Assembly (NCBI RefSeq): GCF_007745175.1
Contig: NZ_CP036271.1
Span: 4,290,314 to 4,354,313, forward strand
Direction of reading: 5' to 3'
Origin: Caulifigura coniformis
GTDB taxonomy: Bacteria > Planctomycetota > Planctomycetia > Planctomycetales > Planctomycetaceae
DNA: 64,000 nt
Of the stretch, positions 1 to 14,611 are shown piece after piece. The position numbers and the translations under genes were made by a program. Each line of letters opens with the position of its first letter. Positions within the stretch are counted from its first letter, which is position 1. The notes under the pieces were generated by a model. The model saw nothing but the letters and a program-made list of their open reading frames with translations, was not told where the DNA came from and made no database searches.

Positions 1-1743
1 CCAATCTTGACTGCCCTGAATGCACGGCTGGTCATCATCGTTGAGGACTTAGATCGAAACCAAAGCCAAGATTTCGATCGTCAGGCTGTTCTTGCGATGC
101 TTCAACGAATCAAAGACATCCCTTCGCTGTCATTTGTCCTCACCGGCGGTCGCGAGAGTACCGGAGACTCGCTCGCATTTACAAAGCTCTGCGATCACGT
201 CGAGCCGATGCCCACTCTGCCATTGGTCGACGTCGCGAAATCCCTGCTGGCGGCGCGAGAGGCAGCATCGAAGGCGTACGGCGACGTCGATCCCACTCCT
301 GACCCGCGCCGTAGCGACTTTGGCCAACTGCTTCGCTGGGATGGCCCATCACTCATACCGAAGTACGATTCGATCGAGCGACGTCTGCTTATGCTGCTCA
401 GAACCCCTAGGAACCTGAAGCACACAATAGAACGGTCAGCGGATCTTTGGGAATCGCTGCATGGGGAAGTGGACTTTGATGAGTTGCTCTGCGTTTCAGC
501 GCTCCATGTCGCTGCACCGTCCGCTCTGGATTTTATAATTCGTAACATCGACGACTTCCGCAAAACAGCCAGCCGCATTGAAAGCCAAGACCGAAGTGAC
601 GGTGCGATAAATGCACCCTGGTATGACCGGTGGCAAGAGGTTGTGCCAAAAGCCGACTTCGACGTCGATTCTGTCACGACAATTATTGACTACCTTTTGC
701 CTGGAATGGTGACTTCAAAGATCGCAAGAAGCTATGGGAGTCCTGGTCCGCAAGCGCTTTGCCGGGTGAAGCCGACGGATTACTTCAGGCGAATCATGGA
801 AGGTGAAGTCCCGGCGGACGAACTTACCGATCAGGAAGTGTTGAGGTTGATCGAAGAGGCTCGCAAGGGCGGCAGCTTGACGACGCTCGCAGACAAAATG
901 GTGTCGAGCTTCGCCTTTATTGCGAAGTGGGAGCAGTTCGCGGATCGATTTCCGCGAGATCGATTGCTGGAACTGATTAGCTTGACGTTGAAGGAGGCCG
1001 TGACACCCGCGCTCTTTAAGCGCCAGCCCGGCTCGGAAGCATGGCTGGTCCCGCTCCGGGCCACATACCGCTGCAAGCCGATGCCCGCAGATCAGTATGT
1101 GGATTGGATGTGGCGAGAAATGGAAAAGGCGCTTCCGAAGAACATTGGTCTCGCGAACAGCATCTACGACCAGTTCGCGCTAGGTGAGCCCCGCCTGATT
1201 GAATGGGACCAACGTGAATACTGTCGAGACCGCCTTCGTGAGCGGGTTTATGCGTGGTGCAAAGAGCACTGGCCAAAGCTAACCCCAGCAGAATTTGCCA
1301 AGGCAGTCGATGGTCCAGCAGGGTCGCGTGGATGGGAACTGTGTCAGTTAATGTTCCCTGGCTCATCGCGTGGATTCAAAGTGAAACACTCCGAACGCAG
1401 CGATTGGGCATGGGCAGGCCCACTGATTCAAGCGGCGGCCGTTGCCTGCCCTGACATCATGATTCGCCAAGTCGCGAATCTCGTTTTCAAACAGGTTCAG
1501 TTCACTGTTGGCCCGGTGGACGGCAAGTCGCTGCGGGCTCTTTTCGGAGAAAATGGTCGGAATGTTGTGAAGTGGATCGCCGACAATTCCCATCGCTTGC
1601 CTCCGGTCGAAGGGATGGATGGAAAAGTTGTCGACGATCTAGCCGAACGATGGCTCCTGCATGGTGACGAGCCGGAAGATGGCAAAGCCACTGACCCAGT
1701 CACTGATAACCAAGACGGGACTGCGCCGCCTAGCGATTCATGA
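1..1743 (+). CDS. KAP-family P-loop NTPase, 5'-truncated by window edge
   Basis: The frame is open to base 1, so the true start and the Walker A loop lie to the left of the window. Within the first 20 visible residues there is a hydrophobic strand ending in EDLDRN, the Walker B form (hhhhDLDR) typical of KAP P-loop NTPases. About 30 residues later comes LSFVLTGGR, resembling the sensor strand of these proteins. The remaining ~450 residues are soluble, mixed helical and charged, with no membrane span visible; I recognise no further domain. KAP NTPases are known from plasmids, prophages and defence islands, which fits the position inside the element that ends at 10187. The 1 kb downstream holds no gene, so this is probably the last gene of its transcript. 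The family call is moderately firm; the biological role is unknown. Confidence 0.6.
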   Translation, partial: PILTALNARLVIIVEDLDRNQSQDFDRQAVLAMLQRIKDIPSLSFVLTGGRESTGDSLAFTKLCDHVEPMPTLPLVDVAKSLLAAREAASKAYGDVDPTPDPRRSDFGQLLRWDGPSLIPKYDSIERRLLMLLRTPRNLKHTIERSADLWESLHGEVDFDELLCVSALHVAAPSALDFIIRNIDDFRKTASRIESQDRSDGAINAPWYDRWQEVVPKADFDVDSVTTIIDYLLPGMVTSKIARSYGSPGPQALCRVKPTDYFRRIMEGEVPADELTDQEVLRLIEEARKGGSLTTLADKMVSSFAFIAKWEQFADRFPRDRLLELISLTLKEAVTPALFKRQPGSEAWLVPLRATYRCKPMPADQYVDWMWREMEKALPKNIGLANSIYDQFALGEPRLIEWDQREYCRDRLRERVYAWCKEHWPKLTPAEFAKAVDGPAGSRGWELCQLMFPGSSRGFKVKHSERSDWAWAGPLIQAAAVACPDIMIRQVANLVFKQVQFTVGPVDGKSLRALFGENGRNVVKWIADNSHRLPPVEGMDGKVVDDLAERWLLHGDEPEDGKATDPVTDNQDGTAPPSDS

Positions 1744-1834
1744 GGCTCACGGTCCAACACGACCACAGAGACAATCGCGAGACTCTGAGGTGATTGCGCG
1801 CGCAATACACGGGCCGCCACAAGCCCGCCAGCGG

Positions 1835-1957
1835 CCTGGAATCATCCTGGACGGGTTCCGGTAGCCTGGAGCACTGAAGACGTCTACGGGCGGCCTGGAG
1901 GCCGCTGCGGGCGTATCACAATGTGATACGAATCAGACGACCTGGAATGAGCCTGGA
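1835..1957 (+). repeat. Cluster of six CCTGGA hexamers
   Basis: CCTGGA occurs at 1835, 1846, 1865, 1894, 1941 and 1952, all on the plus strand and all in non-coding DNA; five of the six are preceded by G or A. The spacing is irregular (11, 19, 29, 47, 11). The same hexamer is frequent on the plus strand across the rest of the element. What it does is unknown. Confidence 0.55.
1912..1930. promoter_or_regulatory. 19-bp perfect dyad, operator-like
   Basis: The sequence CGTATCACAATGTGATACG has 9-bp arms around one central base. It has no T-run after it, so it looks like a repressor operator and not a terminator. A related imperfect dyad with the TGTGAT half-site lies 46 bp downstream at 1976-1987. 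No promoter hexamers could be assigned. Confidence 0.5.
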
Positions 1958-1975
1958 AAGGCATTCTAACAGTCT

Positions 1976-1987
1976 GTGATATGTCAC
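1976..1987. promoter_or_regulatory. Imperfect dyad GTGATATGTCAC
   Basis: Ten of 12 positions are symmetric, and the half-site GTGAT is shared with the dyad at 1912-1930. The two sites could bind the same dimeric regulator, but this is inferred from sequence symmetry alone. Confidence 0.35.
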
Positions 1988-2074
1988 GGATTGATATCGA
2001 ATCTTGAGATGCCCAGCGCGATTACGGAGTTACGTCGAGATTCACCGCGTGCCGGCCAGTTTTCTCCGCCGATC

Positions 2075-2317
2075 GTGCCGATCGCTCAGAAATCGGCACC
2101 GCTTACCACGTAAGGACTTAGGTGCGTTTTTGGGGTAAATTCACAAAACCTCCTATCTATCGCCATATGCAAAATCAATTCTTATAGTAATAACAATATA
2201 AAAGATGACACACGTATAAGGAGTAGATGGCCGGTTCCCTGTTTTACCCTGAAAATCGACCTTAACTCCTTACGTGGCAACGGGTGCCGATTATTTTACG
2301 ATCGGCGACATCGGCAC
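2075..2317. repeat. Large inverted repeat flanking an AT-rich core
   Basis: Bases 2091-2120 and 2263-2292 are inverted copies, 26 of 30 positions matching, with the shared core TCCTTACGTGG. The octamer GTGCCGAT occurs four times: plus strand at 2075 and 2284, minus strand at 2092 and 2310. Each arm therefore carries an inverted pair of octamers (2075-2099 and 2284-2317). The 140 bp between the arms are markedly AT-rich around 2150-2220. Paired iterons around an AT-rich stretch recall a replication origin or partition site; a miniature inverted-repeat transposon is the main alternative. No target-site duplication was recognised. Confidence 0.6.
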
Positions 2318-2778
2318 GCCGCGGCAGCGATCCCTGATGACCGCTCGCGCGGTTGAGATGCGCGCCCTGGGCCGGCGACCTGACTCCCGCACGACCGCTA
2401 CGACCGTCGCAATCCGTACAACCGTCACAGCCTGCCCGCTCCTGGCCGCTCGCTTGCATCGCAGGCAAGAGGTCACACGCCGTAAGTCTCGCTGCATCAC
2501 TGACGTGCAACATCCTGACTGCACCTCATAGCGTAGTGATGTGGACCAATCTTGACTCCACGGGACCGGGAGGGGGTCAGATTCGGGCCGGCAGGCGGCG
2601 GCCGAAGGGCACGTTTGCGCCCAGCACTTTGGCGTGATTTCCCGGCGGCGACCCAGTCGACGACGCGGCGAACGACGATTTCGCACCGGAGCGCCGAGAT
2701 TCCCGACACTTTCCGATCAAAACGATCGTTTTGGCCTAAATGAGGGTTAGGAGCACCTCATATCAACCAGCCAACGCA

Positions 2779-2976
2779 ATGAACATCGTATCAACCCTCT
2801 TGACCCCGGCCGCAGGCACCCTGACGCCAGTGGCAGACATCGTCGCCGCCGTGCGAAAGGCCATTCCTCACGCTCACCTGAAGCGTGGTGAGGTCGTCGC
2901 CTGGATTTCTGAGGCCGGCCACAGGCTCACGTTTGCCGGCGGCCAGCTTCAGGCCGCTGACGTGAAGCTCAACTGA
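2779..2976 (+). CDS. Small helix-turn-helix-like element protein (65 aa)
   Basis: I chose ATG 2779; an in-frame upstream ATG at 2740 would add an unlikely basic leader. Residues ~14-45 form a helical stretch with the pattern I-x-AV-x-x-AIP...R...WI-x-x-x-x-HR. This is shared almost position for position with the 66-residue protein at 3519-3719, so the two are paralogues. The pattern (two helices, a tryptophan core and a following strand) looks like a small winged helix, but no named family was recognised. It is the first gene of a plus-strand cassette that runs to the tape-measure gene. Function unknown. Confidence 0.6.
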   Translation: MNIVSTLLTPAAGTLTPVADIVAAVRKAIPHAHLKRGEVVAWISEAGHRLTFAGGQLQAADVKLN

Positions 2977-3032
2977 TTCCACTGCCGCCCGTCAGTCCTG
3001 GTCAACTTCCTGGCGGGCAGCACTTCTCACAC

Positions 3033-3109
3033 GCGGCCGGCGTAGGCCGCGGTCAGCCGTTGTCTTGGCGGCTGCCCAACACCGGCGGTGCTGCTTCGAC
3101 ACCGCCGGT
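3033..3109 (+). repeat. Two strong hairpins between small genes
   Basis: Hairpin 1 pairs GCGGCC (3033-3038) with GGCCGC (3045-3050). Hairpin 2 pairs ACCGGCGGTG (3081-3090) with CACCGCCGGT (3100-3109), a perfect 10-bp stem with a 9-nt loop that ends 20 nt before the next start codon. Neither is followed by a T-run, so simple rho-independent termination is unlikely. Confidence 0.6.
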
Positions 3110-3129
3110 CCTTACACCGAAGGTCTCTG

Positions 3130-3393
3130 ATGATTTCCGACGAACAACTCGACCAGTTCATCAAAGAACGATGCCAGCCTGGAAAGTCGTCCCCGGCGGA
3201 GTTCGCGGACAGCGTTGCGACCTTCTTCGGCTTTCCTGGCTCATGCCACCGTGACAGCGTCCTTTGGATGCTCAAAGAGCGCGGCCTGTATTCGCCGAAG
3301 CGGTCTCCGTCCGACGATGAAGCCGTCTGGCTCATCTTCAGAACTGGCAAAGCCCCGAACGGCCTCGCCGGAATCACGGGCAAACCTCTCTGA
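3130..3393 (+). CDS. Small element protein, possible winged-helix (87 aa)
   Basis: ATG 3130 begins the protein at ISDEQLDQF; the frame is open further upstream, but that part overlaps the hairpin region and lacks a sensible start. The sequence is helical and acidic at first. A stretch around residues 20-45 (F-x-DSV...FPG...DSV-x-WML-x-x-RGLY) roughly echoes the paralogues at 2779 and 3519. The C-terminal third contains a DDEAVWLIF motif that resembles nothing I know. It is part of the same closely spaced plus-strand cassette. Confidence 0.55.
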   Translation: MISDEQLDQFIKERCQPGKSSPAEFADSVATFFGFPGSCHRDSVLWMLKERGLYSPKRSPSDDEAVWLIFRTGKAPNGLAGITGKPL

Positions 3394-3400
3394 CTCTTGC

Positions 3401-3451
3401 CCGCCGGTGAAATACGGCGGCCCGGCCGCGCCTTGAGAAAGCCCGGCCGGG
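3401..3451 (+). repeat. Two hairpins in the next intergenic gap
   Basis: CCGCCG (3401-3406) pairs with CGGCGG (3415-3420), and CCCGGCCG (3421-3428) pairs with CGGCCGGG (3444-3451). They repeat the theme of the gap at 2977-3129: GC-only stems with short loops and no T-run. Confidence 0.55.
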
Positions 3452-3490
3452 AGGGACACACCGGACTCGTTTGACAATGGGCGAGTCCGT

Positions 3491-3510
3491 GCCCGTGGTC
3501 GACCACGGGC
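3491..3510. promoter_or_regulatory. Perfect 20-bp palindrome
   Basis: GCCCGTGGTCGACCACGGGC is fully self-complementary with no loop, centred on GTCGAC, and lies 8 bp before the chosen start codon at 3519. A dyad without a central loop suits a dimeric protein site better than an RNA hairpin. Its position also argues against the upstream start codons (3471, 3477) for the next gene. Confidence 0.6.
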
Positions 3511-3518
3511 GAATACAA

Positions 3519-3719
3519 ATGATGATTGAAGCGGCCTTCAAACGTGTCACCGCTCCTGGACACGGCGTGAATCTTCCCACCGCGATCCGCGCCGTGTGGG
3601 ACGCCATTCCGCGCGACTCTCGCGTCAGCCGGAAGGCCATTCAGCGCTGGATTCGCGCGAATCATCGCATTGTCGAATCCGCCTACGGACCGGTTCTGGC
3701 CGGCTTCCGCCTCATCTAA
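3519..3719 (+). CDS. Small helix-turn-helix-like element protein (66 aa), paralogue of 2779-2976
   Basis: ATG ATG at 3519 was chosen because upstream in-frame starts (3471, 3477) would place a perfect 20-bp palindrome inside the gene. Residues ~18-50 show AIRAVWDAIP...SRKAIQRWIR...HR, matching the 65-residue protein at 2779 in spacing and key residues (AIP, R, W-I, HR). Both end in a hydrophobic L/V-x-L/I tail. A nucleic-acid-binding role is inferred only from the helical pattern and the basic charge. A hairpin starts immediately after the stop codon. Confidence 0.6.
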   Translation: MMIEAAFKRVTAPGHGVNLPTAIRAVWDAIPRDSRVSRKAIQRWIRANHRIVESAYGPVLAGFRLI

Positions 3720-3767
3720 ACGAGCGCCCTGGAGAGCTTGGAACGGGTTCGTATCCGGGGCGCTCGT
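3720..3767 (+). repeat. Hairpin directly after a stop codon
   Basis: ACGAGCGCC (3720-3728) pairs with GGCGCTCGT (3759-3767), a perfect 9-bp stem with a 30-nt loop. The right arm ends 29 nt before the next start. No T-run follows. It could protect mRNA ends or mark a processing site. Confidence 0.5.
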
Positions 3768-3796
3768 AATCCGTTCACTGAACCCCGACAAAGATC

Positions 3797-4717
3797 ATGA
3801 AACGCATCTCAAGTCTCAGATTCAAACTGTGGGCCGCCGAACAGGGCCTCAACCTGGACGATCAACAGGCCGAAGCCTTGCGGTCGGACCTGGAGCAGCG
3901 CTCCGGTCGGGAATTGCTTCACACCGACTTCTATCCGTCGAATCATCACGAGCGATTCGGCCTGAAGCGTGGCGACTCGCGCAACTCCCTGGAGCGAGTT
4001 CAGGACATGGAGTTCCGGAAGTCGCAGTTCAAACAGCCGGAGCAATTGCCGGTCTCGGAACAGATCGCGCGCTCCTTTGAGGCCGAAGCCAAACAAGCGC
4101 GGATTGATGCGCTGCCCGATGCCGAGCGTCGCGCAGTTCAGTATCGAGAGAAAGCGGACGCCGAAGCCCGCGCCCAGTCGGATGCCGCTGTCCTGGCTGA
4201 ACAGCGCGGGAAGATCGCCGACGTTTTGACGGCCGCCAAGCTGAACGCGATTCGCGCCGCCTTCGATGCCGACCTGACCACGCGAGAGGTTGAGTTCGCT
4301 TTCCACAATGCCGCGCTCCTGGAGCACAACCTGGACGCCGGCCAGTACGCGAAGAATCACACCGACTGGGCGCGGCCGATCGCGGCTCGGAAATCAGCGA
4401 GCTACGAAGAGTTTCGGCAGAAGCTCGCGGCCGAAACCGCTCAGCGCCAGTCACAGATCGCCGAGTTCCTGCCGCCGCCTGCCGCTCCGGCCTCTGACAA
4501 GCCGTTCGCGTGGGACAAACCGCCGGAAGTTGCGCAGAGCCAAACGAAACGCGGCATGGTCCGCATCTTTCACGATGGAAAGGCCACCGTCGTTCCGCAG
4601 TGGGCATACGACGACAACATCGACAACCCGGCATGGCTCGCGAAGTACGCGACGGAGCACGGGTCAGTTGATGACGCTGTTTTGCAAGACGGCGACTCCC
4701 CGCATGGACAGTGGTGA
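3797..4717 (+). CDS. Uncharacterised helical element protein (306 aa)
   Basis: The N-terminal 80 residues are mixed and begin with a basic stretch. Residues ~95-240 are strongly charged and helical (many A, E, Q, R), probably coiled coil. A proline-rich linker near 225-245 leads to a small C-terminal globular part with MVRIFHDGKA and a WAYDDNIDNPAW segment. I recognise no family. In phages, a helical protein a few genes ahead of the tape measure could be a scaffold or tail chaperone, but nothing in the sequence shows this. Its stop codon overlaps the next start (TGATG at 4715-4719), suggesting coupled translation. Confidence 0.6.
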   Translation: MKRISSLRFKLWAAEQGLNLDDQQAEALRSDLEQRSGRELLHTDFYPSNHHERFGLKRGDSRNSLERVQDMEFRKSQFKQPEQLPVSEQIARSFEAEAKQARIDALPDAERRAVQYREKADAEARAQSDAAVLAEQRGKIADVLTAAKLNAIRAAFDADLTTREVEFAFHNAALLEHNLDAGQYAKNHTDWARPIAARKSASYEEFRQKLAAETAQRQSQIAEFLPPPAAPASDKPFAWDKPPEVAQSQTKRGMVRIFHDGKATVVPQWAYDDNIDNPAWLAKYATEHGSVDDAVLQDGDSPHGQW

Positions 4718-4878
4718 TGATGATTTCCATGCGCAACCTGGACGGCCGCTGGCTGGGCATCGTCACCGATCAATCGGGGCGATGCTTCGCGCGTTGGTAC
4801 GGCGACAAGCCAACCGAACGTGCCATTGCGATCGACTGGCGCGACCGTCGTTCCGAGTTCTTCCGTTACTTCTACTGA
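4717..4878 (+). CDS. Short protein (53 aa), translationally coupled
   Basis: The ATG at 4717 shares its A with the stop codon of the preceding gene. The frame reads MMISMRNLDGRWLGIV, then a stretch rich in Trp, Arg and aromatic residues, and ends FFRYFY. The internal ATG at 4729 is an alternative start. The sequence looks like a small beta-rich domain, and the tight coupling and 7-nt gap to the next gene support a real gene. No family recognised. Confidence 0.5.
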   Translation: MMISMRNLDGRWLGIVTDQSGRCFARWYGDKPTERAIAIDWRDRRSEFFRYFY

Positions 4879-4885
4879 GGTTCTG

Positions 4886-5122
4886 ATGCAGCGAGAGTTC
4901 CGCGACTTCCTTACACGAACAGTTCCGGGGCAATCGTCGCCCTACCTGTTCTTCCGCATGTTTTGCCGCCAGACAAACTTCACACCTGACCGCCGCAACG
5001 AGATGGCTTTCGAGCGGCTGTTAGAGACGGAAGGGCTGATTGAAGACGGGTTGGTGACCCGTGGCGCGGGTGCCGCTCGCATGAAGTGGCCGATTGTCAC
5101 TCGCAACGAGGTGGACGAATGA
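4886..5122 (+). CDS. Small element protein (78 aa)
   Basis: ATG 4886 starts 7 nt after the previous stop, and the last codons overlap the next gene as ATGA (5119-5122). The protein begins MQREFRDFL and has a helical first half. Its second half (FERLLETEGLIEDGLV...) has the shape of a wing after a recognition helix. It resembles the 87-residue protein at 3130 in outline (PG-x-SSP near the start, a helix, then a GL turn) more than any named family. Probably a further distant member of the small cassette family; function unknown. Confidence 0.55.
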   Translation: MQREFRDFLTRTVPGQSSPYLFFRMFCRQTNFTPDRRNEMAFERLLETEGLIEDGLVTRGAGAARMKWPIVTRNEVDE

Positions 5123-5514
5123 GCTTTTGGGAATCCTTCACCTGTTGCTTCCCCTGGCCTGGCGCACGCAGAGGTTCTACACCGGTTGTGAAGTTCAAGG
5201 GCAAGGTGACGAGTCCCCGGCGGGTCGCGTGGGAACAAGTACGCGGTCCGATTCCTCCTGGCTGCGACGTCGTCACCACCTGCGGCAACTCGCTGTGTTG
5301 CAACCCGAATCACCTCACGCTGTCGTCCCCGAAGCTGAGTGATGACGACGTGCGAGCGATTCGGGAATCGTCGCTGCCGTCTCGCGTCCTGGCGGCCGTT
5401 CACGGCATCAACAAGCGGAACGTCGACCGCATTCGCACCCGCGAACTACGGGCCGGAGTTGAACAATGGAAGAAATCAAACAGGTTCTCGGCTTTGAAGT
5501 CGGAACCGCCCTGA
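5119..5514 (+). CDS. HNH-like protein with the first catalytic His missing (131 aa)
   Basis: Residues ~28-68 carry the phage HNH signature: RRVAWE, then GPIPPG, then CGN-x-x-CCNPNHL. In active members the residue just before the first zinc-like cysteine pair is His (usually DH or CH); here that position reads TT, while the later N and H and the paired cysteines remain. The C-terminal half contains DDDVRAIRE followed by a helix-turn-helix-like stretch (LAAVHGINKRNVDRI), the usual DNA-binding tail of phage HNH proteins. The start overlaps the previous stop by 4 nt, and the end overlaps the tape-measure gene by 49 nt in another frame. Likely a non-cleaving DNA-binding relative, though a substituted metal ligand cannot be excluded. 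Confidence 0.65.
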   Translation: MSFWESFTCCFPWPGARRGSTPVVKFKGKVTSPRRVAWEQVRGPIPPGCDVVTTCGNSLCCNPNHLTLSSPKLSDDDVRAIRESSLPSRVLAAVHGINKRNVDRIRTRELRAGVEQWKKSNRFSALKSEPP

Positions 5515-8500
5515 AGAACATCAGTGACCTTGGCGGCGCTGTCTCCAATCTCTCGGGACGCCTGAACCGCTTCGGAACGTCCGTTGATCGGTTCAACTCC
5601 CGCTTCGGCGCGACCAGCAGCGCAATGACAAGCACCGGCAATGCGGCCGGCCAACTCGACAGCCGGCTCGGTCGTCTGACCACGTCGGCGGAACTTCTGT
5701 CGCGGATCGTCTACACGCAATTGGTCATCAAAGGCTTGCGCCTGACCGAAAAGGCGATGACTGACGCTGCCAGCGAGGCCGCCCGATTGCAAATCGAGCT
5801 TGCCAAGGTGTCGACAGTCGCGGACGGGATGTTCACCGGCCTGCCGGACATTGGTGCGGCCGTTCGTCAGCAGTCGGCGGCGCTGGGCATCGACCAACTG
5901 GAGATCGCGGGCGGCCTGTATCAGGCGCTTCAGAATCAGATTGGCGGGAGCAAGGCCGAACTCCTGGACTTCAACCGGGTCGCGAGCCAGTTCGCAGTCG
6001 GCACGGTCACCAGCCAGAACAACGCCATCGAACTGCTGTCGGGAACGCTCAACGCTTATGGACTGGATGTGAGCCGTGCCGAAGAACTGGCGTCGAAGTT
6101 CAACAAGACGATCGAAATCGGCAACATCGAAGGCAGCCAGCTTGCGACTGTCTTCGGTCGCGTGTCGACGCGCGGGTCTGAACTTGGCGTCACGTTCGAA
6201 GAACTCAACGGCCTGTTCGCCACGTTGACCATCCGCGGTGTGAAGGCCAGTGAGGCCGCGACGCAAATCAGCGGCGTCCTGTCGGCCTTCACGAAGCCGT
6301 CTGAGGCGATGAAACGCGCCCTGGATCAACTGAACGCGCCGTCCGGCGAATTCCTCATCCGTTCTGTCGGCCTGTCGGAAGCACTCAAGCAAGTGCGGGA
6401 CACGACGGACGGGTCATCGTCGTCACTCGCGAAGCTGTTCCCGAATGTCCGCGCCCTGAACGGTGCGAGCATTGCCGCACGGGACAACCTGGAGTTGCTG
6501 AACCGGAACATCGCGGCCGTTCGTGACACGGCTCTGAGCCTGAACAAGGAACGCTTTGAAACGATCTTCCAGACGGATGCCAAGAATCTCGAAAACGAGT
6601 TGAACAAGGCTCGAATCGAACTCACGAAGTTCGGTGAAGAGCTTCTTCACGTCACCGCGGAAGGGCTCAAGTTCGTCGGCGGGATGGACGGCATCATTTC
6701 AGTGTCGAAGAACGCTGCGCCGGCCATTGCGGCCGTGGCCGCTGCGACTGCTGTCTACGTCGCCAATACGCGGCTGGCCGTCCTTCAGGGGACTGCCCTG
6801 GCTGGAGTGCTCACTAAACTGTCGCAGATTGGCCTTGGTCTGGGAGTCGCCAGCAGCATCGGCAACTTTCTCGGATCGTCGCTTGATTCGTCTCGCCTGG
6901 AGAACCTGCGAAAGCTGGAAGCCGCGAATAACCAGCTTGTCAGCAAGTTCGTCCAAGGCGAACAGACACGGCTGACGGAAGCCCGGACCACTGACGCCGC
7001 CATCGTTCAGAGTTCGCTGAACGCGAGCCGTCAGCAGATTGCCGACTTCAACCGCACAACCGACGAACTGATCGCAGGTGAGAAAAGATTGGTCTCGGTC
7101 GCGACCGATCAACTGAACCGGTTCATCGGCACGCGGGAATCGCTCGTTCGCGAGTTGGAAACGTCCGCGAAGGACTCGGCAAAGGCAATTGAGGATTCGC
7201 AGGCGCGTGTCCGGTCCCTGACTCAGACCAAAGCTGACCGTCAGTTCGATGCGTCCCTGCGGGATGCGGCCGACCCCGAACGGATCAGTCGGACACTGTC
7301 GCAGGCGACGTCTGAAGCCCGGAAGGCCGCTTCCGCTCTCGGCAAAGCGCAGACCGATCAACAAATCAGCGAAGCGCTGCGGTTGTTCGATTCGGCGGAG
7401 CGCCGGGCCGAATCGGCCCGCGCCCTGGCTCAGCAGACCGGCAACCGTGGGGCGGAGAACTCCGCCCTTTCGACGATCAATCGTCTGACCGATCAGCGCA
7501 TTGCGGCAGAGAAGCAACTCCAGAAGATTCAGGAGTCGCGAGCCAACACGCTGACCGCCGAAGCGGCCAAGCAACGGCAGATTCTCGACAGCGTGAAGGC
7601 CAATGCGAAAGAACTCCTGGACAACCCGCCAACTGTCGGCCTTGATCCGCAACAACAGGCACAGCGGGCGGCCAACCGTCAGAAGGCACTCGGCAACATC
7701 CTGAAGGCCGGCTTCAGCTCCAGCGACCTGAAGCTGACGGACGCGCTCGGTTTGACTCAGCTTGCCGCCGACATGGAACGGCAGCCGCTTCCGATCAGCT
7801 TCAACATCGAAGGGGCCGTAAACCAACTCACGGCCGGCGTCCAGACCGCGCTGAACAACTTCAAGTTCAACGCGAAGTTCGACGTGACCGGCCTGGAGCG
7901 GGCTCTTGGCACAACCTTCAGGTCACCGGATGAGGCCGCGGCCGGCCTGTCGCAGGCCGTAACCGAAGCCGATGCGCTGCGCACGAAACTGTCCGGCATC
8001 GAACAGCAGCGGGCGTCAGCACTGACCGGGGTGAAGGCCGAAGTTCAGGAACTCCTGAAGTCGACGGACAGTTTCGCGAACTGGTTGAGCCGATCGCTGA
8101 CCGTGGCGCAGCCGGACGCCCAAAAGGCGCTGGCATTGATGGATCAGTTCAAAGCGAAAGCCAATTCGCTCCTGGACTCGCCCAATGTCAGCGTCGACCA
8201 AGTCAGGCAGTTGTTCACGTCCGTTGAACAGCTTGCCACGCTTCAGAACAAGATCAGCGGCCCCGTTTTTGGAAACGGAGCCGGGTTGAACCCCGACATC
8301 GACGTTCTTTCGCGAGCGACGGACAAGTTGTTGCAGGTCGCACGCCTGCCAACTGCTGATCCGGCGCAGTCGGCCCGCCTGGAGGAATTGAACCGGCTGA
8401 TTCAGGGGAGCAACAGCGCCGCCACGAACATCGAAACGGCGCTGACTCGCGGCGCAACGGCGCTGACGAATGCGGCCACCCGAATCGAGTCGGCGTTGAC

Positions 8501-8819
8501 AAAGCCCATCAACCGGGCGTTCGGCGGACTGGCTTACCACGCGGGCGGAGGACTGGCCCGCGGATCAGACACGGTTCCCGCCATGCTTACACGTGGCGAA
8601 ACCGTGATGACCAAGAGTGCCACGCAACGGTTCTTCAGCGACTTCCAGCGAATGAACGCCGGGATGCAGCCTCAGTATCGGAATGCTGGCGGCACGGTCA
8701 CCAACGTCGGCGACATCAGCATCAACGTGAATGAGTCGAAGACGCCCCAACAGACGGGCCGGGAAATTGCCCGGACGTTGCAGCGCGAGTTCCGTAAGGG
8801 AACGATCCAACGGTTTTGA
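5466..8819 (+). CDS. Phage tail tape-measure protein (1117 aa)
   Basis: Tape-measure proteins line the tail tube, set its length and enter the host envelope with the DNA. Residues ~75-300 match the conserved family core: SRIVYTQLVIKGL, then a long helical block (EIAGGLYQAL, TLNAYGLD, LATVFGRVS, FATLTIRGVKASEAATQ). A hydrophobic segment lies near 415-455. Long low-complexity helical and coiled-coil regions fill 480-1010. The C-terminal ~100 residues contain GGLARGSDTVPAMLTRGETV, the typical end of these proteins. The length would correspond to a medium-long siphovirus-type tail. The start has a GGAG ten bases upstream, inside the preceding overlapping gene. Oddly, no other tail or head gene lies beside it. 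Confidence 0.9.
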   Translation: MEEIKQVLGFEVGTALKNISDLGGAVSNLSGRLNRFGTSVDRFNSRFGATSSAMTSTGNAAGQLDSRLGRLTTSAELLSRIVYTQLVIKGLRLTEKAMTDAASEAARLQIELAKVSTVADGMFTGLPDIGAAVRQQSAALGIDQLEIAGGLYQALQNQIGGSKAELLDFNRVASQFAVGTVTSQNNAIELLSGTLNAYGLDVSRAEELASKFNKTIEIGNIEGSQLATVFGRVSTRGSELGVTFEELNGLFATLTIRGVKASEAATQISGVLSAFTKPSEAMKRALDQLNAPSGEFLIRSVGLSEALKQVRDTTDGSSSSLAKLFPNVRALNGASIAARDNLELLNRNIAAVRDTALSLNKERFETIFQTDAKNLENELNKARIELTKFGEELLHVTAEGLKFVGGMDGIISVSKNAAPAIAAVAAATAVYVANTRLAVLQGTALAGVLTKLSQIGLGLGVASSIGNFLGSSLDSSRLENLRKLEAANNQLVSKFVQGEQTRLTEARTTDAAIVQSSLNASRQQIADFNRTTDELIAGEKRLVSVATDQLNRFIGTRESLVRELETSAKDSAKAIEDSQARVRSLTQTKADRQFDASLRDAADPERISRTLSQATSEARKAASALGKAQTDQQISEALRLFDSAERRAESARALAQQTGNRGAENSALSTINRLTDQRIAAEKQLQKIQESRANTLTAEAAKQRQILDSVKANAKELLDNPPTVGLDPQQQAQRAANRQKALGNILKAGFSSSDLKLTDALGLTQLAADMERQPLPISFNIEGAVNQLTAGVQTALNNFKFNAKFDVTGLERALGTTFRSPDEAAAGLSQAVTEADALRTKLSGIEQQRASALTGVKAEVQELLKSTDSFANWLSRSLTVAQPDAQKALALMDQFKAKANSLLDSPNVSVDQVRQLFTSVEQLATLQNKISGPVFGNGAGLNPDIDVLSRATDKLLQVARLPTADPAQSARLEELNRLIQGSNSAATNIETALTRGATALTNAATRIESALTKPINRAFGGLAYHAGGGLARGSDTVPAMLTRGETVMTKSATQRFFSDFQRMNAGMQPQYRNAGGTVTNVGDISINVNESKTPQQTGREIARTLQREFRKGTIQRF

Positions 8820-8825
8820 AACTCG

Positions 8826-8855
8826 AAAGCCCGGCCCGCAAGGGACCGGGCTTTT
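8826..8855. terminator. Rho-independent terminator between convergent genes
   Basis: AAAGCCCGG (8826-8834) pairs with CCGGGCTTT (8846-8854) and is followed by TTTTCTG. It sits 6 nt after the tape-measure stop and just before the end of the minus-strand gene, and can serve both strands. Confidence 0.85.
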
Positions 8856-8859
8856 CTGT

Positions 8860-9192
8860 TTAGACCACTGCCTTCAACTTCTCCACCGTCGCCAACACCG
8901 ACTTTGCTTGCTCCAGTCCGCCGCACGCCTGAATGAAACTCAGAGCCGCCGTAAAGCCGTTGTCGATGATTCCGCCACCGGCCGCGGACCGGCTGGCCTT
9001 CTTAACCCGCACCTTCCGTCCCTTGCCGCTCGATTTGCTCAGGTTGTATTTGACAATCGACACATAGGCCGGGGTGACCTTGAATCCCTGTTCATTGACC
9101 TTCTCCGCAACTTCCTTCGGAGAGGCGTCCGGATTCGCCTGGAGAGCTTCACGGATCGCTTGGGACTTGTTGCCAGATGACTTCTTTGCCAC
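8860..9192 (-). CDS. HTH-like basic protein of a planctomycete-type family (110 aa)
   Basis: Residues 1-60 are lysine-rich and fold-like: QAIREALQANPDASPKEVAEKV, then VTPAYVSIVKYNL, a helix-turn-helix pattern in which ASPKEV and TPAYVS mark the two core helices. A basic linker (GKGRKVRVKK) leads to a C-terminal helix pair containing CGGLEQAKSVL. From memory, similar short proteins with the NPDA-PKEV and VSPAYVS patterns recur in planctomycete genomes, often near phage-like genes; their function is not established. It is convergent with the tape-measure gene and divergent from 9491. A DNA-binding regulator of the element is plausible. Confidence 0.6.
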   Translation of the reverse strand: MAKKSSGNKSQAIREALQANPDASPKEVAEKVNEQGFKVTPAYVSIVKYNLSKSSGKGRKVRVKKASRSAAGGGIIDNGFTAALSFIQACGGLEQAKSVLATVEKLKAVV

Positions 9193-9490
9193 GGTGCTGA
9201 TTCTCGCTGATAGGACGGCCCACGACCGAACTTTAGCTTAATAGACTGGCGACACAAGTGCGCCCAGTCCGTCCTACAAGAGTCCACCGGTTAATTTTTT
9301 CTGAGGTTTTCGGCGCAATCGTCACCCGGCGAAATGGCCTGTTTTCCTATATGTCAGACAAAAGTCATCACATGAGCGTAAGCTATAGCATGCCGCGTAG
9401 GGCATTGCTCCAGAAGAAGTTAATGCACGCCGTCAAGCCGTATGGCAGAGTTGTCTGCGTTGACAGACACTTCACCACGGATCAACACCT
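9193..9490. other. Divergent intergenic region with a structured dyad
   Basis: No gene seen. It must contain promoters for the minus-strand HTH-like gene and the plus-strand pair at 9491. A nested inverted repeat (9211-9276) lies close to the start of the HTH-like gene. The local base composition is less GC-rich than the flanks. Confidence 0.5.
9211..9276. repeat. Nested inverted repeat
   Basis: TAGGACGG (9211-9218) is inverted at 9269-9276 as CCGTCCTA. Inside it GACTGG (9244-9249) pairs with CCAGTC (9264-9269). It lies 18 bp upstream of the HTH-like gene start, a natural place for an autoregulatory site. Confidence 0.45.
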
Positions 9491-9724
9491 ATGAAAGCCG
9501 TACCACCCCGCCGGTTCTACGTCGAAACGCTCACGCCGATTTTCGACTTCCACAAAGTGCCAAAACGAATTCGACCGGCACTTATCCGGTTCTACTGCGA
9601 GGTCCGGCCGCTCACGCCGGCGCTGGAGCGGTTCAGCCGCCTGCGGGGATGGAATCGCCTGTTTCGCGAATGCAACATCGCAGCAAACGCCGGATGGCTG
9701 GCTCTTCGCGCGAGGTGCGCGTAA
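9491..9724 (+). CDS. Uncharacterised small protein (77 aa)
   Basis: Starts MKAVPPRRFYVETLTP at ATG 9491, preceded by a weak GGAT. It is basic and rich in Arg, Phe and Leu, with amphipathic helices in residues 25-60. Nothing identifies a family. Its stop overlaps the next start (TAATG at 9722-9726), so the two small proteins are probably made together. Confidence 0.5.
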   Translation: MKAVPPRRFYVETLTPIFDFHKVPKRIRPALIRFYCEVRPLTPALERFSRLRGWNRLFRECNIAANAGWLALRARCA

Positions 9725-9978
9725 TGACCGACGAACAATTGAACGACTCGCGCGACTTCGACGGCCTTTACGTTCGCCACTCTGACCGGGCTCGCACATT
9801 CGTGCGCCGGTTCATTGGGAAACGGTTCGAGCACTTGAATGAGGAGATTGTGCAGTCGATCTTTCAGCGGCTGCGCGATCAGCCGTTCGCTCCTGGAATC
9901 GCTTTCTTGCCGCACTTCTATGCTCTGTCGCTAGAGTTGATTGCTGAGTCAGCACATTTGGCGACCGATAGCCGGTGA
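9724..9978 (+). CDS. Sigma-70 region 2-like small protein (84 aa)
   Basis: Residues ~14-50 read LYVRHSDRARTFVRR, then HLNEEIVQSIFQRL. ECF sigma factors begin with the same arrangement: LY-x-RH/Y...L-x-x-FV-R, then an acidic helix with D-(I/L)-V-Q-E-V-F-x-R-L. The protein stops after this segment: there is no DNA-reading part of region 2.4 and no region 4. Either it is a remnant of a sigma gene, or a small protein that binds core RNA polymerase without directing it. It overlaps the stop of the 77-residue gene by one base and is the last gene before the tRNA scar. Confidence 0.5.
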   Translation: MTDEQLNDSRDFDGLYVRHSDRARTFVRRFIGKRFEHLNEEIVQSIFQRLRDQPFAPGIAFLPHFYALSLELIAESAHLATDSR

Positions 9979-10143
9979 CCTCTTGCATTCGGGTTCACTG
10001 CGACCTATGCTTCTGAATCGCTGGTGCACATGCACCAGCCTGTCTTCCTGAGAAGCGTTTACGACGCCTTGGGAGGCAGGCGAGAACTACTAATCCCATA
10101 CAAACACTATCAACAGGGCCTCATATAGTATTCCCAGAAGCGA
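9979..10143. other. Right end of the element, non-coding
   Basis: No gene seen. It holds the dyad CTGGTGCA (10021-10028) / TGCACCAG (10031-10038), then a looser inverted pair at 10039-10048 and 10071-10080. Integrase arm sites or excisionase sites are often found in this position beside an attachment core, but none can be assigned from sequence alone. Confidence 0.45.
10021..10038. repeat. Dyad next to the attachment site
   Basis: Perfect 8-bp arms with a 2-bp centre (CTGGTGCACATGCACCAG). Not followed by T residues. Possible protein site near the integration core. Confidence 0.45.
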
Positions 10144-10187
10144 TTGACATGCATGAGGTCACAGGTTCGAGTCCTGTCAGGCGCACA
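10144..10187 (+). other. Attachment scar: 3' half of tRNA-Val(GAC)
   Basis: Homology to a tRNA begins in the anticodon loop (TTGACAT, with U33 and anticodon GAC) and runs to the discriminator base. There is a 3' anticodon strand GCATG, variable loop AGGTC, T-stem ACAGG/CCTGT around TTCGAGT, acceptor strand CAGGCGC, then A; no CCA is encoded. The preceding bases do not form the 5' half (the anticodon stem would need CATGC and shows AGCGA). A cut in the anticodon loop is the usual crossover site of tyrosine recombinases at tRNA genes. The complete tRNA gene should stand at the other end of the element, to the left of the window. Confidence 0.8.
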
Positions 10188-10192
10188 TCCGA

Positions 10193-10225
10193 AACCCGTA
10201 AGTGGCAATCACTTACGGGTTTTTT
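10193..10225 (+). terminator. Terminator of the original tRNA transcript
   Basis: AACCCGTAAGTG (10193-10204) pairs perfectly with CACTTACGGGTT (10210-10221) around a 5-nt loop, followed by TTTT. It lies 6 nt after the tRNA 3' end, as expected for the native gene end left behind after integration. Confidence 0.85.
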
Positions 10226-10264
10226 CGTACCCTGAGCTTTGTAGCCCTTTTTAGCTTTCTGAAT

Positions 10265-10297
10265 CTGTACCCCTTTTTTGAGAAACCGGGGGTACAG
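10265..10297. repeat. Inverted repeat CTGTACCCC / GGGGTACAG
   Basis: Nine-bp arms at 10265-10273 and 10289-10297 with a T-rich loop. It lies 14 nt past the stop of the minus-strand P27-like gene and may end its transcript, though no T-run follows on that strand. Confidence 0.4.
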
Positions 10298-10310
10298 TCC
10301 GCTTCACCTT

Positions 10311-10763
10311 CTATTGCGGGATGATAACGGCCAGCCGTTGCCAAGTCGCTTCAGGCCCGAATTCGATCAGTGATTGCAGTATCTGCTGACGCTGCTTCTC
10401 GTTGTCCGCTTGCTCGCCAAGCTCGCTGACCATGTGGGCAATCAGCCGCTCAAGCTCTGTCTTTTCGATGTTTGATTTGACCCTTTTCAGCGTCTCTTCA
10501 AAGCCGTTCTTTGCCAATGACTGAAGCATGATCGAACGGGTTTCGGGAGTGTCGATTGCCGTCTGATCCGTTGCGGACAGCAGCCCCATTTGGTCAAGTT
10601 GAGCCGTGGAGCGGTGCCACTCTTCGGCGGCAACTGCGTCTAACCAGTCCGGGCAAATGGGTTGATTCTGGCTCGCCTTTGGTTCAGCCAGCTTGCGTCG
10701 TCTTTTGTGCATGTCGCCCCGTAGTTTGTTGATCTGCTTTGGTTTAGGTATTCGTCCCTGCAT
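10311..10763 (-). CDS. P27-type small-terminase-like protein (150 aa)
   Basis: From the Met at 10763 the protein reads MQGRIPKPKQINKLRG, then a basic stretch, PICPDWLDAVAAEEWHR and LDQMGLLSATDQTAI. This matches phage P27 small terminase subunits (GRPPKP...LRGN...P-x-CP-x-WL...A-x-x-EW...L-x-x-x-GLLT-x-x-D). Beyond residue ~75 the sequence departs from the family into a helical, glutamine-rich tail. Small terminases bind DNA and load the large subunit, which is not found here. Its start lies 11 bp from the divergent gene, leaving no room for two promoters. A start at the inner Met (10715) would relieve this but would cut into the conserved N-terminus. Confidence 0.65.
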   Translation of the reverse strand: MQGRIPKPKQINKLRGDMHKRRRKLAEPKASQNQPICPDWLDAVAAEEWHRSTAQLDQMGLLSATDQTAIDTPETRSIMLQSLAKNGFEETLKRVKSNIEKTELERLIAHMVSELGEQADNEKQRQQILQSLIEFGPEATWQRLAVIIPQ

Positions 10764-10774
10764 TCCGTATCTAG

Positions 10775-12034
10775 ATGTCCAACACGCCGAATCAGCTAAC
10801 GATTGGTGGTGGAACCACAAACGTGTGGGATGTGTTCCTTGGCTCGCCGAGCGATGCACTCCCGCTGAAAAAGGCACTCTCGGACGCCATCACCGAAATG
10901 AACGGTGCGTTGCCGAGCAAGCTGCTTCAGTTGAAACCGATCAACTACGAAATTGCCGTCACGGCTCAAGTCGGAACCCCCGGACAACGTTGGATCAACG
11001 AAGAGCGAGTTCAGTCCGCACAAATCCTGTTCGCAGTGTTCAATCGCAATCTTGGAACACCGGTCGACGACGCTGTCAGCGGAACTGTGAGCGAGATTCA
11101 AACATTCGTTGCCAACGACAACGGAATGAACGCCGTCATCTTCTTTAAGCAGGGAAGCGACAAGACGACCGAGCTTGCAGATTGGCAGAACGACATCGGC
11201 GGCCGGTGCATCTACGTCCCATTCAGGACTGCCGATCAACTTAAGAACTTGGTGAAGCACCAGTTATTTCACCGGATCTTCGCAGCGATGCACAACAAGG
11301 CGGATGACAGTGAAATTGTCCGAAAGGCGATGAATGAAGCCAGCATGTGGCAGACAGCACACCAAGGGATGAAGGAACAATCGGAGAAGTGGGAGGTTGC
11401 TTTCGCTATCACGCTATTCATTTCAATCTTTGCCGTGATCGGATTGATCGTATGGTCTATCTACCTGTGGAACAGTCGGTTCGGTTGGCAATTGGAACAC
11501 AACAAGGTCAAGCAGCAATTGACGAAGGAAGTCAAAGCGGAACGAGACAAGTATTTCGCAGCTAATTACCAAGCGACGGTGGCGAAGAGTGAACTGAATA
11601 GGTCCAAGAAACCGTGGACAGCCGAAGAGTTCGCCGCCGCAATCGGGTTCTTTCGATTTAAGCCAACAGAAGAGATTATCTACATAAAGACGCCGGAAGG
11701 TGAGCTTGGTCTGAACACGCCTGAAGCCGACATCTCAATTTCCATCGACAAAGTTGCTCCGATAATGCGATTCAACGTCGCAATCAAACCGGTCGAGCCG
11801 GGATCGGATGGGAAGCTCCATCCTTCGTCTGCCTCCCTACTGGTCTCGAATGAGGACGGACGCCCTTTCGTAATCGACATGACATTTGACGATGTCTTCA
11901 AACCTAAAACTGACAAAATCACGTCTCAGCTAGAGGCGGTATTGTCGCACATGACGTCGCCAGCCTACGTCAATGCGATCCAGCGGCGGCTGGATCAGTT
12001 CAAACGTGCAGACGACTCCTCATTCTTGAAGTAG
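10775..12034 (+). CDS. Membrane protein with DUF4062/TIR-like N-terminal domain (419 aa)
   Basis: Residues ~15-115 resemble the DUF4062/TIR-like module found in front of STAND NTPases and other defence proteins. The features are DVFLGSPSDALPLKKA, then QRWINEERVQSAQILFAVF, then GTP..SGTVSEI (the SPSD-x-x-x-E/K, Q-x-x-I-N-x-x-I, and GTP-x-x-x-x-SGT-x-E-I pattern). A single membrane span lies at about 208-230 (FAITLFISIFAVIGLIVW), followed by a helical stretch and a soluble C-terminal domain of ~130 residues that I do not recognise. A sensor-plus-membrane layout beside mobile DNA suggests an abortive-infection effector, but this is inference. The start ATG 10775 has no clear ribosome site. Confidence 0.55.
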   Translation: MSNTPNQLTIGGGTTNVWDVFLGSPSDALPLKKALSDAITEMNGALPSKLLQLKPINYEIAVTAQVGTPGQRWINEERVQSAQILFAVFNRNLGTPVDDAVSGTVSEIQTFVANDNGMNAVIFFKQGSDKTTELADWQNDIGGRCIYVPFRTADQLKNLVKHQLFHRIFAAMHNKADDSEIVRKAMNEASMWQTAHQGMKEQSEKWEVAFAITLFISIFAVIGLIVWSIYLWNSRFGWQLEHNKVKQQLTKEVKAERDKYFAANYQATVAKSELNRSKKPWTAEEFAAAIGFFRFKPTEEIIYIKTPEGELGLNTPEADISISIDKVAPIMRFNVAIKPVEPGSDGKLHPSSASLLVSNEDGRPFVIDMTFDDVFKPKTDKITSQLEAVLSHMTSPAYVNAIQRRLDQFKRADDSSFLK

Positions 12035-12105
12035 GTCGTGCCGAACTTGCAGAGATGCTGGTTCGCGTCACCTCATTGAAGGGCCTCAAGCGTTGGCGTA
12101 ACCGT

Positions 12106-12543
12106 TCAAAAGAATCCCTGTCCTCCCATGCCCCCCATCCCTCCGCGCGATTTCCGAAACTCGGCCTCTGGAAACCGGGCCGCCAGCTGATCGAGAACAT
12201 CCGCCGAGAGCGGCCTCTCGAGGTGGATGAGCACCCCGCGAGGTTCACCTCCCGGGGCAAAAAGCAGTCGGCGTCCTTCCGAGTCCCGCCACAATTGAAC
12301 GTGCGTCCTTGGAATCTTCAGCCAGGTTCGGAACCTGCCGAGTGGTGAAGAATCCAACGGGTCGATCCTGGCTTCCGCGGCAACTTCCAGATGCTGGACC
12401 GCTGCGATCCAGGTTTCCCGTCGCTGGCGCTCAACCGTCGTCCAGACAAGCAGCCACAGCCCCGTGGCCGCAATAGCCAGGGCCCCGGCGATGATGGCGA
12501 GCCGGTGCAGGCGGCGTTTCGGACCTGGCGAACGGAAACTCAT
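12106..12543 (-). CDS. Small membrane-anchored protein (145 aa)
   Basis: The start at 12543 overlaps the stop of the upstream gene (12540-12542), giving ATGA coupling. Basic residues (GPKRRLHR) precede one hydrophobic helix at about 14-34 (LAIIAGALAIAATGLWLLV), so it is probably a type II membrane protein with a periplasmic domain. That domain contains a WIAAVQHLE helix and the end is glycine-methionine rich (GGMGGMGG). No family recognised. Together with the upstream gene it forms a two-gene operon. Confidence 0.7.
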   Translation of the reverse strand: MSFRSPGPKRRLHRLAIIAGALAIAATGLWLLVWTTVERQRRETWIAAVQHLEVAAEARIDPLDSSPLGRFRTWLKIPRTHVQLWRDSEGRRLLFAPGGEPRGVLIHLERPLSADVLDQLAARFPEAEFRKSRGGMGGMGGQGFF

Positions 12544-13004
12544 TCGGGGACACGGGTCAGTACATATGTGGGAGCCGGCCAGCGACGGACGCCGACATAC
12601 TCCAGCGTCAGCGTCTTCTCCGTGATCGACACGATCCTGAACGCATCGGGAGGTGGCGGCGCGGGCGCGCCCGACCAGTTCTCCTGTGCCCACTGGAGGA
12701 ATTGCCCTGGCAGTGTGGAGGCGGTCATCACGCGATCCGGCCGGATGACGATCGAGTCGCGTTCGACGGTCCAGAAATTCCGGGTCTTGCCGGCGATTCC
12801 GGAGTCCTCGATCACCACGCCGTCGCGACCAAAGTCGAAGGTCACGACATGCGGCCAGGGAAAGGTCTGCGGGGCCGTCTGCCAGCGACCGACGAGGCGC
12901 GGATCGACCTGGGAACTGCTCCAGAACACCGTTGCGACGGCAGCGCCGAGGAACACCGCCACCGGCCATCGCCAGCGTTTCGGAGCCGACGGAGTGTCGA
13001 TCAT
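12540..13004 (-). CDS. Membrane-anchored protein with lipocalin-like domain (154 aa)
   Basis: ATG 13004 is preceded by GAGGA eight bases upstream; a GTG at 13031 in the same frame is possible but has no ribosome site. One hydrophobic helix (WPVAVFLGAAVATVFW) near the N-terminus is followed by DPRLVGRWQ, HVVTFDFGRDG and NFWTVERDSIVIRP. This pattern (an LVGRW opening, then beta strands) is common in small lipocalin-like beta-barrel proteins of planctomycetes. Substrate unknown. It is translationally coupled to 12106-12543. Confidence 0.7.
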   Translation of the reverse strand: MIDTPSAPKRWRWPVAVFLGAAVATVFWSSSQVDPRLVGRWQTAPQTFPWPHVVTFDFGRDGVVIEDSGIAGKTRNFWTVERDSIVIRPDRVMTASTLPGQFLQWAQENWSGAPAPPPPDAFRIVSITEKTLTLEYVGVRRWPAPTYVLTRVPE

Positions 13005-13027
13005 GGGATCGTTCCTCAACCGGACAG

Positions 13028-13261
13028 TCACTTCACTGGCATGACGGGGGGAATCTTCCAGCTGCCATCAATGATCGATGGCGGCGTCTCCTTCGGCAAG
13101 GAAGGAAAGACGACGCATGAAACTTCCTCCGTCATGAACGTGGATTCATCGAAATGGCCGTTGTGCCGGTCATCGCTCAGCGGTGTGCCGACGCCCAAGT
13201 CTCCCGACGAGCGTCGCAGGTCAGCAACAAAAAGGGGCCGGGCCGCGTCCGTGACGAACGG
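13028..13261 (-). other. Coding-like frame in phase with the esterase stop (77 codons)
   Basis: Directly after the esterase TGA (13262-13264), the same frame stays open for 77 codons to a TGA at 13028-13030. The translation starts PFVTDAARPLFVADLRR and ends SWKIPPVMPVK, with a clear preference for G/C in third positions. No ATG or GTG occurs before codon ~40 (MTEEVSC). It could be the 3' remnant of a lost gene, a gene starting at a rare codon, or a readthrough extension of the esterase. Confidence 0.35.
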
Positions 13262-14164: not shown

Positions 14165-14611
14165 GCGGAAACTCGCGTGCTTTCAGGGAGCACGAATTCT
14201 AGCGGGGAACCGCTCAGATGGCCTGATGGGGGAATCTGTTTCGTTCCCCGGCTGAGCCGCACTCCTGCAGTGCCGCGCAACCGCTCCCGTTGGGTGGAGG
14301 CGCCATGCAAACGAACACACCCACCCCGACACACCCAAGTCCCTCGCACACAGGCGATGCGCGCAGCGTTCCGACGCAACGACCGTCTGGCAAAGACGGC
14401 GCAGCACCTGCGCCGATTCGCCAGCGGAGGAACGGCATCGATACCACACCGCCCCCCGGCCCTGTACTTCTTGCTCGGTTGCCAGCCTTGGTGGGCGACT
14501 TGACCGTGAACTTCCCCGTGGCGGCCGCTATTCTGAAGCCGGATTCGGTCGCCGCTCCATCGGAATCCGCCCGCCCCCCGCCCCTGCCCTCCCGACCCGG
14601 GAAACTCCGGC
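14165..14611. other. Divergent intergenic region, no gene seen
   Basis: Separates the minus-strand esterase from the plus-strand cytochrome/DUF1549 gene. Several frames are open because of the high GC content, but none has a start signal or a family match. Promoters for both flanking genes should lie here; I could not place them. Confidence 0.4.

Follow-up and report, generated by a model that had tools for sequence, protein, structure and literature searches.

Two islands in tandem at a planctomycete tRNA-Val(GAC) gene, and a candidate RNA motif ahead of related integrases

Introduction

Islands lodged in tRNA genes have been catalogued by Islander, and the part of that paper drawn on here (PMC4383910) counts 3919 islands, 3760 of them with a 3' fragment of the tRNA, 2083 centred on the anticodon, and 125 tandems of two or more. 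The locus described here, in the planctomycete Caulifigura coniformis, adds another case to these catalogued tandems. As in the islands presented in that part of the paper, a complete tRNA stands at one end and a displaced 3' fragment at the other, each island has its integrase, and the edge falls in the anticodon loop; unlike them, the locus has a planctomycete host and a cargo that in part resembles the relic of a phage, whereas its structure is no different.

Two further systems bear on the integrases of this locus and of its relatives. One is the prophage KplE1, together with other integrase genes that neighbour their tRNA, for which the portion of PMC2951348 consulted describes an int gene beside its tRNA and discusses a possible transcriptional coupling. 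KplE1, as presented there, is alike in that int lies beside the tRNA when integrated, with an int promoter region that overlaps the attachment site; however, the intervening DNA in KplE1 holds protein binding sites and a promoter, whereas in the sister-species integrase family a three-way-junction motif matches there at 20 of 35 loci (E up to 0.1). The other is int-alpA RNA (RF02996), a structured RNA tied to integrase modules, but one that follows the integrase gene rather than preceding it.

The starting point was a stretch of 64,000 nucleotides, hereafter the window (G000:C1:4290314-4354313, in a genome that is a single contig of 6.76 Mb), in which a preliminary description had read half a tRNA-Val(GAC) as the integration scar at the right end of an element.

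Results

The half tRNA is there, and its sequence is identical to that of the genome's complete tRNA-Val(GAC). It starts with the first base of the anticodon loop and ends on the discriminator base (window 10144-10185); the length had been put at 44 bases, and although the 3' half itself holds, the count does not, for it is 42 bases, or 43 with the next base (to 10186). ARAGORN found no complete tRNA in the window and Rfam nothing there at gathering scores, and the tRNA model recognizes the scar weakly (18.2 bits, the gathering score being 29). The hairpin beyond it (Table 1), which starts six positions past the discriminator base and has a T-run at its end, folds at -21.0 kcal/mol (z -6.2), a value equalled by 0 of 200 shuffles. 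It is absent from the list of a simple terminator scan, and my guess is that its pairing takes up part of the T-run; a terminator and promoter scan at all three tRNA copies described below listed nothing, though two of the three precede strong hairpins with T-runs.

Table 1. Features of the window around the displaced tRNA half (window positions)
Feature	Position	Strand	Evidence
Right part of island E2	1..10143	+	copy positions, GC
End of 900-aa KAP P-loop NTPase gene, E2	1..1743	+	PF07693 E 9e-07; PADLOC PifA model 1.1e-14 over 65 residues
ORF of E2, 254 aa, no family match	3027..3791	-	
ORF of E2, 306 aa, no family match	3797..4717	+	
Phage tail tape-measure-like protein of E2, 1117 aa	5466..8819	+	PF10145 E 3.3e-24; PHROG tape measure 1.6e-20; TIGR01760 4.4e-20
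Small ORF of E2, weak winged-helix match	8860..9192	-	PF13412 E 0.0085, below cut-off
Last listed ORF of E2, 178 aa, no family match	9442..9978	+	
Displaced tRNA-Val(GAC) 3' half; right attachment site, distal end of E2	10144..10186	+	43 bases = complete tRNA G000:C1:4268837-4268911
Hairpin then T-run, terminator-like; by geometry, former 3' flank of the tRNA or of an older insertion	10191..10223	+	folding
ORF with terminase small-subunit stretch; possible relic of an older insertion	10311..10877	-	phrog_83 E 9.9e-13, residues 35-108; Pfam, NCBIfam: no match
419-aa ORF, N-terminal stretch like defence candidate PDC-S60	10775..12034	+	PADLOC E 2.5e-08, residues 16-126

A 30-base probe allowing up to three mismatches hits the genome at three sites (G000:C1:4268881, 4284312 and 4300469), all on the plus strand; a control pattern gave none. 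The left copy belongs to the complete tRNA-Val(GAC), which is ARAGORN's only complete tRNA in the 39 kb around and to the left of the window start, while the middle copy matches it over 45 bases and the right copy over 43, both as bare 3' halves. Alignment of 300 bases around each copy revealed nothing common beyond those 43-45 bases. The copies delimit two head-to-tail segments, island E1 (15,431 bp) and island E2 (16,157 bp; G000:C1:4284343-4300499, its start 5,971 bp to the left of the window). Just inside the left end of each lies a tyrosine integrase gene, 210 bp in for E1 and 245 bp for E2. GC content is 0.592 in E1 and 0.590 in E2, against 0.647 in the left flank and 0.634 in window positions 12035-64000. 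The genome has 47 tRNA matches, and among the 30 of these 47 loci read with ARAGORN, Val(GAC) occurs once, here; Val(CAC) and Val(TAC) also occur. The locus has what marks a tRNA-targeted island, namely a complete tRNA and an identical 3' fragment in the same orientation at opposite ends with a tyrosine integrase within.

Extension of the sequence to the left turned up both things that the preliminary description had predicted there. The complete tRNA-Val(GAC), its bases identical to those of the scar, stands 21.5 kb before the window begins, and the integrase genes lie beside the left ends; the outcomes it had named as refuting (no integrase or second copy within about 100 kb on the left, or the same half in relatives without the element) did not occur. 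Its further claim, that the scar is the right end of an element, stands in so far as the scar ends E2, but the single element has become two tandem islands.

A subset of the island ORFs, 23 from E1 and E2, was scanned against Pfam, PHROGs or NCBIfam. E1 contains its integrase (L004:7122-8210, PF00589 1.5e-10), a DNA methyltransferase (PF01555 1.5e-34), a primase-like protein (DUF5906 2.6e-13), a ParB-like protein (1.6e-16) and an HNH-like nuclease (phrog_1872 5.9e-35). In E2 the integrase (L005:3588-4994, PF00589 2.1e-14) is followed by, among others, a truncated integrase-like ORF, the KAP NTPase and the tape-measure-like protein. Besides the integrases, the phage-type matches among the 23 are this last protein in E2 and the primase-like, ParB-like and HNH-like proteins in E1; a search for phage relatives of the primase-like protein found none. 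A complete prophage was considered and rejected, as the 23 ORFs include no capsid, portal, large terminase or tail modules.

The E2 integrase (468 aa) joins two sources. Its residues 14-146 are similar to residues 20-168 of the E1 enzyme (36% over 149 positions, E 1e-18 to 2e-19), whereas for residues 138-468 the match is with the integrase that the sister species G001 has beside its tRNA-Val(GAC) (38% over 371 positions, E about 1e-66); integrases of the sister-species type have a different and shorter N-terminal part. What I take to be the catalytic motifs of this enzyme class are visible in the E2 sequence. A search by short peptide patterns gave no close relatives of the whole fusion, which could have arisen by deletion between neighbouring integrases in a tandem array. 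The truncated integrase-like ORF inside E2 (L005:7298-8125) is 27% identical to the catalytic part of the E1 integrase over 127 positions.

The same tRNA is occupied in several relatives. Among 170 genomes of the family, the exact 3'-half pattern occurs at 23 places in 16 genomes, and the full-tRNA pattern (up to two mismatches) in 17, once in each. Extra halves number two in C. coniformis (G000) and one each in G001, G022, G016, G108 and G176, with a further one in G174, where the full tRNA is lacking; the one in G176 lies on the opposite strand, 28 kb away, and is not placed as an island end. In the sister species an integrase comes after the complete tRNA-Val(GAC), with a half copy 13.4 kb on. 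An integrase of the E2 type comes directly after the complete tRNA in G001, G005 (where it is cut short), G016 and G022, and after a half copy in G022 and probably G174.

In two genomes of a different genus within the family, G172 and G176, the tRNA stands between a left-hand gene and a right-hand gene that the two have in common (87% and 77-85% identical, respectively); with no integrase found in the 1.5 kb read to the right of the tRNA, this is an empty site. G175, a relative of both, shares their left gene (67-69%), but to the right of the tRNA it shows an integrase-type leader, after which the contig breaks off. The tRNA flanks that were compared between C. coniformis and the sister species differ, so genus-wide synteny gives no test; a BatA-like flank protein has a 57% match in the sister species some 565 kb from the tRNA-Val there, and a second flank protein, when searched in the relatives, turned out to belong to a large paralogous family.

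When named genomes were scanned with the integrase family of the sister species, 35 loci came up, picked by similarity to three integrases that follow tRNA-Val(GAC) and including some near-duplicates. At 27 of them the same strand carries an intact tRNA, of one of many kinds, whose end precedes the integrase match by 98-199 bp. The gap between tRNA and integrase repeatedly shows a three-way junction, a strict descriptor of which matches 12 of the 27 leaders as against 1.1% of letter-shuffled leaders, and a covariance model built from seven leaders found a match before the integrase at 20 of the 35 loci (E up to 0.1). Matches from this search and the wider ones below include L116:2897-2949, L121:2907-2958, L151:1501-1552 and L198:1678-1728. 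Two loci, L117 and L141, fit the strict descriptor and are not listed by the covariance model.

Covariation is pronounced. In a first alignment, fitted to a model and consisting of 24 matches taken as non-redundant, the seven model leaders among them, 97.9% of cells pair, 13 of 15 pairs have changed on both sides, and 0 of 500 shuffles were as good on any of five measures. With 52 matches to a second model, again in a fitted alignment, 97.4% of cells pair and 12 of 15 pairs have changed on both sides; here four of the five measures were equalled by 0 of 500 shuffles, and the fifth, the count of such pairs, by one of 500. When 24 trailers were aligned without fitting to a model, three helices of the same shape still emerged, the middle one reduced to two pairs, and 10 of 12 pairs had changed on both sides. 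Across three fitted alignments, G-U pairs outnumber A-C pairs by 54 to 7 (12:1, 17:1 and 25:5), an excess that the model scoring may favour somewhat and in which some places are counted in more than one alignment, yet such as would be expected of an RNA read in the sense of the tRNA and int. The one example folded, L198, is no more stable than its shuffles (z 0.16), so that the case rests on covariation and position rather than on folding energy.

Between the junction and the integrase start, ACTACC/GGTAGT boxes, repeated or palindromic, are seen by eye at L116, L121, L123, L119 and others, and may be protein binding sites.

With the second model, matches occur in 95 of the 170 family genomes (E up to 0.01) and in 31 of 294 genomes drawn across the phylum (E up to 0.001). 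I examined 83 matches, which represent 82 places (L109 and L198 being the same) and include some places that also built the models; they comprise the loci for 30 family genomes, 38 picked by hand further down the list (mostly passing over matches at contig ends), 13 from the phylum search (excluding L183, L185, L187 and L189, loci that lie in family genomes) and the match in C. coniformis itself. In 59 of the 83 the end of an intact tRNA is no more than 60 nt upstream of the motif, and in 42 of those 59 it is 8-12 nt away, with 20 anticodons represented; an integrase match starts within 600 nt after the motif in 69. Neither tRNA, integrase nor T-loop-like stretch accompanies five of the 83. 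Some of the misses lie at contig ends.

The single match in C. coniformis stands 10 nt after tRNA-Gln(CTG) and before an integrase, in an island (G000:C1:3395596-3405546, L198:1596-11546) where an exact 44-base copy of the 3' part of that tRNA and the first bases following it recurs 9.9 kb downstream. E1 and E2 have no match to the motif, and the window as a whole gives a single hit, at 13619, that is no better than chance (E 0.41). The leader of the E2 integrase is without the three-way junction.

At gathering scores, Rfam left the leader motif unmatched at the 20 loci searched, and one example stayed unmatched up to E 10. In these searches the motif itself does not match RF02996 (int-alpA RNA); that RNA occurs after the integrase gene at two of the 20 loci (L119:4177-4248, L131:4061-4129). 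The literature searched, including the accessible parts of PMC11109978 and PMC2864571, contains no description of the motif and offers one item for comparison, 'Rhodopirellula-1', a planctomycete candidate motif that a table of PMC2864571 gives without an Rfam number. The leader motif could be the same as 'Rhodopirellula-1', and it could also act as DNA instead of RNA.

Discussion

Almost certainly the scar is a distal copy of the attachment site, produced when an element integrated site-specifically at tRNA-Val(GAC), an event that would have happened at least twice. On this account a tyrosine integrase would cross over at a point that probably lies in the anticodon loop, and the incoming element would supply an identical 3' half, so that the left end again has a whole tRNA and the former 3' half is moved away. 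Two rounds would give the order seen, complete tRNA, E1, half copy, E2, half copy. Since new islands would enter at the intact tRNA, E2 should be older than E1; both may be mobile at present.

Half tRNAs can also arise by decay, and a decayed pseudogene, or a segmental duplication, would need no integration at all. That origin was rejected and seems exceedingly improbable, given the perfect identity over 43-45 bases, the abrupt limits at the anticodon loop and at the end of the tRNA, the lack of further similarity in the aligned stretches and the integrase beside each left copy. A better candidate, though still an unlikely one, is a single island of 31.6 kb whose middle half copy came from a later internal event such as capture of an attachment site. 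The outermost pair of copies alone would suffice to bound it, and the hybrid E2 integrase may not have integrated by itself; yet in both segments an integrase stands where one is usually found, 210-245 bp in from the left copy, and a half copy followed by a further integrase of the same family recurs in G022 and probably G174. Two successive integrations explain the locus best.

The array may once have been longer. The preliminary description took the hairpin for the native terminator of the tRNA, and a strong hairpin with a T-run is indeed present six bases on, but 'native' goes too far, as the DNA right of the scar looks foreign too: GC is 0.518 in 10187-12034 against 0.634 beyond, and the stretch holds the terminase small-subunit stretch and the defence-like gene of Table 1. 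A third and oldest island may accordingly once have stood there, of which 10187-12034, terminator included, would be the relic. This is a reading that I hold to be slightly less probable than its converse. Against it, no third half copy was found in 10187-14600, the best match being 23 of 43 bases, where 40 shuffles reach 20-24; and in G110 a terminator-like hairpin, judged by eye, lies directly 3' of the complete tRNA, as a native one would.

When the old tRNA half is displaced, its 3' flank goes with it, which raises the question of how the restored tRNA gene obtains a proper 3' end. E1 carries a strong hairpin with a T-run of its own; many relatives have instead the conserved three-way-junction motif, with no obvious T-run in the leaders inspected. 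If the leader is an RNA transcribed with the tRNA, it would presumably act in cis, on read-through into int or on the 3' end of the tRNA. The observations may be read as follows: in islands of the integrase family that relatives have beside this tRNA, an RNA of about 46 nt with a three-way junction, previously unlisted and typically 8-12 nt past the regenerated tRNA, would stand just before int and be read out with the tRNA as a cis replacement for the displaced terminator, governing read-through into int, and E2 would be a variant that has lost both this RNA and the matching integrase N-terminus, the latter swapped for an E1-like part. I put this forward tentatively, as a proposal somewhat short of an even chance.

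Conclusions

The scar itself is the product of an ordinary kind of event. What the locus offers is a clear view of stepwise island accretion at one planctomycete tRNA, a site that occurs filled, doubly filled and empty within a single family. If the leader is confirmed as an RNA, it may link the transcription of a host tRNA to the expression of the integrase in a widespread class of mobile elements.
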